A stretch of 64,000 bases of DNA, from the NCBI GenBank assembly GCA_026713865.1, contig JAPONQ010000096.1, forward strand, positions 1-64,000, written 5' to 3'. This document shows, piece after piece, positions 39,781 to 41,043 of this stretch. Source of the stretch: Chloroflexota bacterium. GTDB taxonomy: Bacteria; Chloroflexota; Dehalococcoidia; UBA2979. Below the pieces are notes generated by a model that was not told where the DNA came from, did no database searches, and saw only the letters and a list, made by a program, of their open reading frames with translations. The translations under genes were made by a program, and so were the position numbers. Position 1 is the stretch's first letter. Every line of letters begins with the position of its first letter.

Positions 39781-40044
39781 ATGAGTCGACGACGCCTCGC
39801 CGCTGTCTGTGCCGGCGCCGCGGCGGCGCTCGTCCCGGCGATCGCCGCCGCGCAGGAGGGCCGGGCACTCGGCGCGCCCGAGCAGGCAGCGGGTGCCGTG
39901 GTCATGACCATCGCCGGCGTTCTCGTTCTCTTCGCGGCGGCGGGCGTCGGGTACCTCTACCTCCGCCTGAACGGCTTCGAATGGGACTTCCAGAAGAAGG
40001 AGCTGCCTCCGGAGCCGGGCTCCGGTGGACACCACGAGTCCTGA
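39781..40044 (+). CDS. Small exported single-span membrane protein
   Basis: An 87-residue protein that I do not recognise. A signal peptide (residues 4-23, ending VPAIAAAQ) is followed by a transmembrane helix (about 38-60, AGAVVMTIAGVLVLFAAAGVGYLYL) and a short tail with acidic, Pro and His residues (EWDFQKKELPPEP, GGHHES). AGGGAGG lies about 8 bases before the ATG. It lies between nuoN and the peroxiredoxin and could belong to either context; a role in respiration or redox defence is only a guess. Confidence 0.65.
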   Translation: MSRRRLAAVCAGAAAALVPAIAAAQEGRALGAPEQAAGAVVMTIAGVLVLFAAAGVGYLYLRLNGFEWDFQKKELPPEPGSGGHHES

Positions 40045-40088
40045 GCCGCCCCGCGAGGCGGCCTGAGGCGACGGGGAAGGAGCAGCAC

Positions 40089-40547
40089 GTGTTGCAGGTC
40101 GGCGAGAGGATGCCCGAGTTCAAGCTGCGCCATCGCGACGGCGACGTGACGAACGAGGACTTCGCGGGAAGTCCCGCCGTCATGGCGTTCTACGCGGTCG
40201 CCTTCACCGGAGGCTGAGAGCGTGAGATGAAGGCCTTCCAGGAGCTCCTCGGGGAGTTCCAGGAGGCCGGCGCCCGCGTCGTGGGTGTCAGCTCGGATCA
40301 CGCACCGGCCAACGGGGTCTTCCAGGATCAATGCGGCACGGAGTTTCCGCTGCTCGCCGACTGGCCGCGCTACCGCACGCTGGACGCCTTCGGCGTCCGC
40401 GACGAGAGGCTGCCCATTGCGCAGCGGGTGACCTTCATCTTTGACGGCGAGGGCGTCTGCCGCTACGTGCTGAAGGACCTCGACGAGGTCGAGTACCACG
40501 CCTCGGAGGCGCTGAGCGCGGTGAAGGGGATGGCGGCGGGCGGCTAG
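40089..40547 (+). CDS. AhpE-like peroxiredoxin with in-frame UGA (probable selenocysteine)
   Basis: A 152-codon peroxiredoxin. Read through the TGA at 40215-40217, the frame is continuous: VGERMPEFKLRHRDGDVTN, then FYAVAFTGG-U-EREMKAFQELL, then VVGVSSDHAP and FPLLADWPRYRTLDAFGV. The TGA falls at residue 43, exactly where peroxiredoxins have their peroxidatic Cys (TxxC), and TGGU is the known motif of Sec-containing peroxiredoxins. AAGGAG lies 6 bases before GTG 40089. A strong hairpin starts 14 bases after the TGA. A Cys at QCG could act as resolving residue. The enzyme would reduce hydroperoxides with thiols. Conventional callers split or truncate it; the piece from ATG 40227 lacks the catalytic part. 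sel genes are not in the window. Confidence 0.88.
40232..40268 (+). promoter_or_regulatory. Candidate bacterial SECIS stem-loop
   Basis: GGCCTTC (40232-40238) pairs with GGAGGCC (40262-40268). Inside this, GGAGCTCC (40241-40248) pairs with GGAGTTCC (40253-40260) around a TCGG tetraloop. That is 15 bp with two G-U pairs and one small internal loop. The loop lies 31 bases after the UGA, within the range used by SelB. Published consensus prefers a G among the first two loop bases; here G is third, so the fit is good but not perfect. Confidence 0.65.
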
Positions 40548-40575: not shown

Positions 40576-41043
40576 CTACTCGGCCTGCACCGGGTAGGCC
40601 CGCATCGCCTCCTCGATCTCGCCGGCGCGCTTCTCGAGCGCGCCGAGCCTCTCGTGCAGCTCCCCGCGCATCTCGGTGAGCTGCTGGCTCTTGTGTTCCA
40701 CGATCTCGAGCTGGCGCCTGGTGGCGTCGATCACGAGCTGGACGCGCTCGCGGCGGGCCGGGAGCTCGCGGTCCAACCGGAACGTCGCGCGGATCTGGGC
40801 GCGCAGCTGCTCGGCATCCACCATCTCCTTGATCTCGGCGAGGCTCAGGCCGAGCAGCTCCTGGAGCTTCTTGATCAGGGAGACTCGCTCGATGTCGTTG
40901 TGGGTGTAGAGGCGGAAGCCGCCCTCCAGGCGGTCGGTGGGGCTTATGAGCCCTCGTTCCTCGTAGAAGCGGAGCGTTCGCTGCGTGACGCCCGTGCGCT
41001 CGGCAACCTCGCCTATCTGGTAGCGGCGGTCCCCGTCGTCCAC
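40576..41043 (-). CDS. MerR-family transcriptional regulator
   Basis: A 155-residue MerR regulator. N-terminal YQIGEVAERTGVTQRTLRFYEERGLISP is the helix-turn-helix, followed by the wing GGFRLYTHNDIERV. A long C-terminal coiled coil (RRQLEIVEHKSQQLTEMRGELHERL) mediates dimerisation. There are no Cys residues, so it does not sense metals or redox through thiols. The start is GTG 41043. It converges on the peroxiredoxin gene and its target is unknown. Confidence 0.85.
   Translation of the reverse strand: MDDGDRRYQIGEVAERTGVTQRTLRFYEERGLISPTDRLEGGFRLYTHNDIERVSLIKKLQELLGLSLAEIKEMVDAEQLRAQIRATFRLDRELPARRERVQLVIDATRRQLEIVEHKSQQLTEMRGELHERLGALEKRAGEIEEAMRAYPVQAE

Follow-up and report, generated by a model that had tools for sequence, protein, structure and literature searches.

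The 64,000-nucleotide stretch of DNA analysed here (the window; taken from contig 96 of a draft Chloroflexota genome, 2.52 Mb in size and 92.7% complete) encodes a peroxiredoxin (Prx) that, judged from its sequence, is very probably a selenoprotein. The gene is ordinary as a protein family and unusual in its RNA: two adjacent hairpins, H1 and H2, follow the UGA codon for selenocysteine (Sec), and both are selected in the Sec-encoding members of the family only. Taken as a whole, the data are best explained by a functional AhpE/Bcp-type 1-Sec peroxiredoxin with two-hairpin recoding, a reading that we regard as likely. The relevant features are collected in Table 1.

Table 1. Features of the Sec-peroxiredoxin gene, with positions in the window and distances counted from the UGA codon
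Feature	Position	Strand	Basis and remarks
Shine-Dalgarno-like AAGGAG	40077..40082	+	Read directly; 6 nt upstream of the GTG start
Sec-peroxiredoxin coding sequence	40089..40547	+	Pfam AhpC-TSA, AhpE match, AF2, Foldseek
Sec43 codon (UGA), aligned with the peroxidatic Cys	40215..40217	+	Alignment with FTGIC of Mtb AhpE; TGA in 79/84 relatives
Hairpin H1, loop UCGG (40249-40252)	40232..40268	+	+14..+50; codon shuffles, covariation; proposed folded spacer/recoding hairpin
Hairpin H2, 9 bp, loop GUC (40278-40280, the Val64 codon)	40269..40289	+	+51..+71; codon shuffles, covariation; proposed SelB-binding SECIS apex

The coding sequence begins with GTG at 40089, specifies 152 aa with Sec (U) at codon 43, is intact on either side of the TGA and closes with a TAG stop (40545-40547). 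With the TGA read as U, the product contains ...AFTGGU43EREMKAF.... A standard ORF caller stops at 40217, and an ATG at 40227, 9 nt after the TGA, heads a 106-aa ORF. The preliminary description of this DNA had reported a gene missed by ordinary ORF calling, an AAGGAG Shine-Dalgarno sequence before the upstream GTG, and an in-frame TGA where an otherwise intact AhpE-like peroxiredoxin has its peroxidatic Cys. All of these observations were borne out, the last by the alignment of U43 opposite the peroxidatic Cys in the FTGIC motif of Mtb AhpE.

The Prx product scored 94.8 bits against Pfam AhpC-TSA, and its best sequence match among PDB structures was Mtb AhpE (1xxu and others; E value 7e-18). 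The two proteins are alike in length (152 aa in the window and 153 aa in AhpE), in an FTGxC/U active site and in fold (TM ~0.86), but AhpE uses Cys and is ~32% identical to the window protein. An AF2 model built from the family alignment (pLDDT 97, pTM 0.92) matched Bcp and AhpE structures in Foldseek, with Bcp4 as the top fold match and AhpE close behind. With regard to placement in the AhpE subfamily, AhpE ranks first by sequence and Bcp4 by fold, and AhpE occupies a deep, open branch of the tree. The (T/S)xxU portion of the peroxiredoxin active-site pattern P-xxx-(T/S)-xx-C/U is present in the window protein; the Pro is Ala in the window (AVAFTGGU) and Pro in many relatives (PMAFTGGU). By family chemistry, Sec43 would be the attacking residue in peroxide reduction. 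A Cys at position 82, at a helix end, is common to some relatives (e.g. loci L045, L053 and L102) and might be the resolving Cys for Sec43. The gene is flanked on one side by nuoLMN and an 87-aa unnamed ORF, and on the other by a convergent gene for a MerR-family regulator. The gene order around it (40576-41043, - strand, and 39781-40044, + strand) is mostly kept at locus L120.

Bacterial selenoproteins of the 'Peroxiredoxin (Prx)' family (PF00578, TxxU) are established in the available portions of PMC1088965, PMC2398784 and PMC13188914, and TxxU Sec peroxiredoxins are abundant in marine metagenomes. The window protein shares with that family the AhpC/TSA fold, the peroxidatic Sec in TxxU (TGGU here) and the many Cys homologues. 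Because such enzymes are already established, it represents a new branch rather than a new family. It is set apart from the published descriptions, so far as those portions extend, by its Chloroflexota lineage and by having AhpE and Bcp as its nearest solved structures. It also differs from the PrxU equivalog (NCBIfam NF040737), scoring 31.1 bits, far below the cut-off of 270.

A Sec-insertion system elsewhere in the genome had been anticipated in the preliminary description, and searches located all of its parts in this one genome: selA (535 bits), selB (293-310 bits; 614 aa, with the RNA-binding winged-helix domains SelB-wing_2 and SelB-wing_3), selD (328 bits) and selC, the tRNA-Sec gene (71.8 bits, anticodon UCA). 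The selD match is split across contigs C67 and C14 (L030, G000:C67:2-811, and L033, G000:C14:101424-101576) and contains its own in-frame TGA, in CAGUAGK. Compared with the Rfam model, the acceptor stem of the tRNA-Sec (L009, 1501-1593) has an unpaired G on the 3' strand, with a deletion opposite. Besides the Prx gene, three genes of the genome carry TGA at a redox Cys, namely selD and two thioredoxin-fold genes. By motif, an AhpC/TSA protein with RWUPFC (L004, G000:C2:2631-3026, - strand; canonical GUG loop at +21) is a second selenoprotein of the genome and corresponds to the known 'Prx-like UxxC' family; a thioredoxin-fold protein with SWUGCR (L008, G000:C87:63404-63748, - strand; CGUGU loop at +20) is a third and corresponds to the known 'Prx-like UGC' family.

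Orthologues were surveyed in 393 genomes of the class Dehalococcoidia (Chloroflexota), and 79 of these contained one whose codon 43 is TGA, the most divergent being ~35% identical. The alignment at residue 43 that had been suggested beforehand shows this codon, which aligns with the redox-active Cys of homologues, to be TGA in 79 of 84 relatives, with the reading frame intact throughout. The nearest named relative is SB0675_bin_30 (92%), and the named relatives, from which the class name is taken, are Chloroflexota and Dehalococcoidia MAGs. A selA gene was found in 73 of the 79 Sec-Prx genomes versus 198 of the 314 other genomes of the class (Fisher p 6e-8), and the six Sec-Prx genomes without a listed selA are all drafts, 69-90% complete. 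Sec use is widespread in the class, with selA in 271 of the 393 genomes. A congeneric genome (L036/L120) also has TGA at the Sec codon, and dN/dS between it and the window gene was 0.26 before the TGA and 0.10 after it, indicative of purifying selection downstream. A tree computed after the Sec/Cys column had been removed showed the Cys members L037, L046, L051 and L070 nested among Sec members; two of these four Cys versions, L037 and L046, belong to genomes listed without selA (G043 and G339). The distribution of selA, the dN/dS values and the nested Cys members together argue for a Sec codon that has been maintained and that has given way to Cys here and there, where the machinery has disappeared. 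One Cys member, L070 (G110:C38), is sister to a Sec one, retains an H2-like hairpin and comes from a genome that keeps selA; it is possibly a recent Sec-to-Cys change.

These data also bear on other explanations of the TGA. The ending of the called frame at 40217 is what would be seen if the gene were a decayed one, with a common Cys peroxiredoxin interrupted by a nonsense mutation. Given 79 genomes with TGA at the same codon and an intact frame, the low downstream dN/dS against the congener and the three further genes with TGA at a redox Cys, decay is extremely improbable, and the earlier proposal of a true selenoprotein rather than a pseudogene is well supported. The occurrence of in-frame TGA in several genes might otherwise suggest that this organism reads UGA as sense throughout. 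Such a reassigned code is scarcely credible, however, as TGA ends nuoM, selB, and the genes for an ABC ATPase and a response regulator, as well as a small upstream ORF; in-frame TGA in the Prx family is limited to the redox position, and tRNA-Sec (UCA) and the sel genes are present. TGA within non-redox genes, at sites where the homologues have no Cys, was not seen. The ATG at 40227 and the ORF that it heads would permit termination at the UGA followed by re-initiation, yielding two polypeptides, with the hairpins as regulators of the process. That split would remove the catalytic residue, and re-initiation could not be general because the relatives L045, L053 and L056 have Leu in place of this Met; its likelihood is negligible.

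The hairpin H1 had been noted beforehand as a 15-bp two-part stem-loop with a UCGG loop, 14 bases after the TGA, and it was found as described, separated from the TGA by a spacer at 40218-40231. Its folding energy was unremarkable against dinucleotide shuffles (z -0.76) but stood out against synonymous-codon shuffles of its own gene (z -2.85). When a 42-nt frame was slid over 33 non-redundant Sec genes and compared with synonymous shuffles, an excess of folding was observed at +6 to +54 after the UGA, with its peak at H1 (mean z down to -1.89, t -8.8), and values were near zero at most other gene positions. A second, weaker excess, at +36 to +84, corresponds to H2, whose G-U-N loop lies at +60. 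This second dip is not an artefact of the 3' arm of H1, as it was unchanged when the H1 codons were held fixed. Neither excess was present in five Cys genes. The codon-shuffle z for H1 was -1.81 in 37 Sec genes versus 0.06 in 30 Cys genes (p 1e-7), and that for H2 was -1.38 versus 0.01 (p 2e-5). Both signals remained significant when the set was thinned to <50% identity (t -5.0 for H1 and -3.6 for H2). An exception that speaks against this pattern is the Cys gene L070, with its H2-like hairpin. An Rfam search at the hairpins gave no match.

Covariation was observed for both hairpins. In one register group of H1, 82% of cells were paired and 10 of 16 pairs had changed on both sides, with a covariation score of 0.281 compared with 0.145 for shuffled and at most 0.124 for slid alignments; agreement was weaker in a second register group. 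The H1 registers differ between subclades (62, 63, 64 or 65, and others), and the loops have no common sequence. H2 is aligned in a single register, with 87% of cells paired, 6 of 9 pairs changed on both sides, and a score of 0.379 versus 0.231 shuffled and at most 0.126 slid. The G and U of its loop are invariant in 29 of 29 sequences; this invariance may be protein-driven, since the G-U belongs to the codon of a conserved Val. The inner H2 pairs alter residues 63 and 65 beside Val64 (QVL, RVV, RVA, HVV, KVV), so that these residues apparently covary to keep the RNA paired, and RNA structure apparently shapes the protein sequence.

The bacterial SECIS (bSECIS) model of bSECISearch, as given in the available part of PMC13188914, has a G in the first two loop positions, an upper stem of 4-16 bp and a distance of 16-37 nt from the UGA; a subset of putative bSECIS elements is stated there to fail it. 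In linear sequence, neither hairpin of the Prx gene conforms to the model in every respect. H1 has the distance (its loop starts mostly at +25 to +31 after the UGA) and the stem and lacks the loop G, and in 58 of the 79 genes the hairpin at the model distance has no G at either of the first two loop positions, even when suboptimal folds up to 3 kcal are allowed. H2 has the G and the stem, and its linear distance of 60 nt falls outside the range. With H1 folded out, the path from the UGA to the H2 loop has a median of 23 nt (10-90%: 18-30), inside 16-37, although this argument was formed after the data had been seen. By a wider loop criterion, which accepts an early G-G or G-U and was used for both hairpins alike, H2 is present in 71 of the 79 Sec-Prx genes of the class. 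Three genes have a near loop, GUU at +17, and no H2; the near canonical loop and H2 largely exclude each other (non-redundant Fisher p 0.003). A set of 38 further, more divergent Sec-Prx genes comprised 11 with H2 only, 12 with the near loop only, 1 with both and 14 with neither (p 0.03); these 14, by the criteria used, count against the two-hairpin reading.

The Chloroflexota Sec-Prx loci L102, L109, L117, L133, L138, L212 and L229 encode a homologous enzyme with Sec at the same codon, but, unlike the window gene, they have a single near hairpin (loop GUU at +17 or CGUGA at +27) and no H2. As in the E. coli fdhF-type SECIS, there is a stem-loop in the coding region after the UGA, and the loop of H2 is 3 nt long, begins with G-U and tops a stem of 6-9 bp; in the window gene, however, 60 nt separate the UGA from the G-U loop, and H1, likewise under selection, lies between the two.

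A true selenoprotein could also be made with H1 as the sole SECIS, provided that its SelB accepts loops lacking the customary guanosine, in which case H2 would be an independent feature (mRNA stability or pausing) or a by-product of the AQVLG motif. H1 is the closer hairpin, its loop starts within 16-37 nt, its codon-shuffle signal is the stronger of the two, and some putative bSECIS elements do fail the model in the available part of PMC13188914. On the other hand, H1 loops share no sequence and their registers vary by subclade, whereas H2 has one register and a G-U loop. Codon-level selection on H2 is confined to Sec genes and persists with the H1 codons fixed, and few genes that have a canonical near loop also have H2. 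In this genome, selD and the two thioredoxin-fold TGA genes fit the bSECIS model, with canonical G loops at +16 to +21, so its SelB probably prefers such loops. On balance, H1 acting alone is possible but rather doubtful.

H1 and H2 are, in our judgement, likely both to be part of the recoding signal. The stem-loop proposed beforehand as the SelB signal is real and is selected in Sec genes; its loop lacks the G of the SECIS model, and, as a canonical G-U loop is found on H2 immediately 3', it probably makes up just one half of the signal; the second hairpin is absent from the preliminary description. H1 would fold at the ribosomal mRNA entrance, with its first pair 14 nt after the UGA, and would take ~37 nt out of the path. 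The H2 loop would then lie ~23 nt from the UGA, within the canonical interval if H1 is folded as a spacer. SelB with Sec-tRNA would recognize the G-U loop of this distal hairpin and deliver Sec to the A site. This assignment of the H2 loop as a putative SelB contact, with H1 as spacer, is plausible, the considerations for and against it being about evenly balanced. With similar reserve, the two hairpins may constitute a new kind of bacterial SECIS, a folded spacer followed by a G-U loop 60 nt away as the SelB site; it would then serve Chloroflexota peroxiredoxins generally in place of one near hairpin and would force residues 63 and 65 to covary. A two-hairpin signal is not described in the available portions of PMC1088965, PMC2398784 and PMC13188914, and no report of a two-hairpin bacterial SECIS was found in the literature searched, which did not include subscription journals, so that the absence is weak evidence.

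The family provides a natural experiment, in that both hairpins have mostly decayed in the Cys versions, two of the four of which are in genomes without selA. This Sec-Prx family would be overlooked or mis-scored by search programs built around a guanosine loop at 16-37 nt from the UGA. Should SelB bind at H2, the spacing rule for inserting Sec in bacteria concerns the folded path length rather than the linear sequence; such a rule, if true, would be useful in designing Sec insertion sites.
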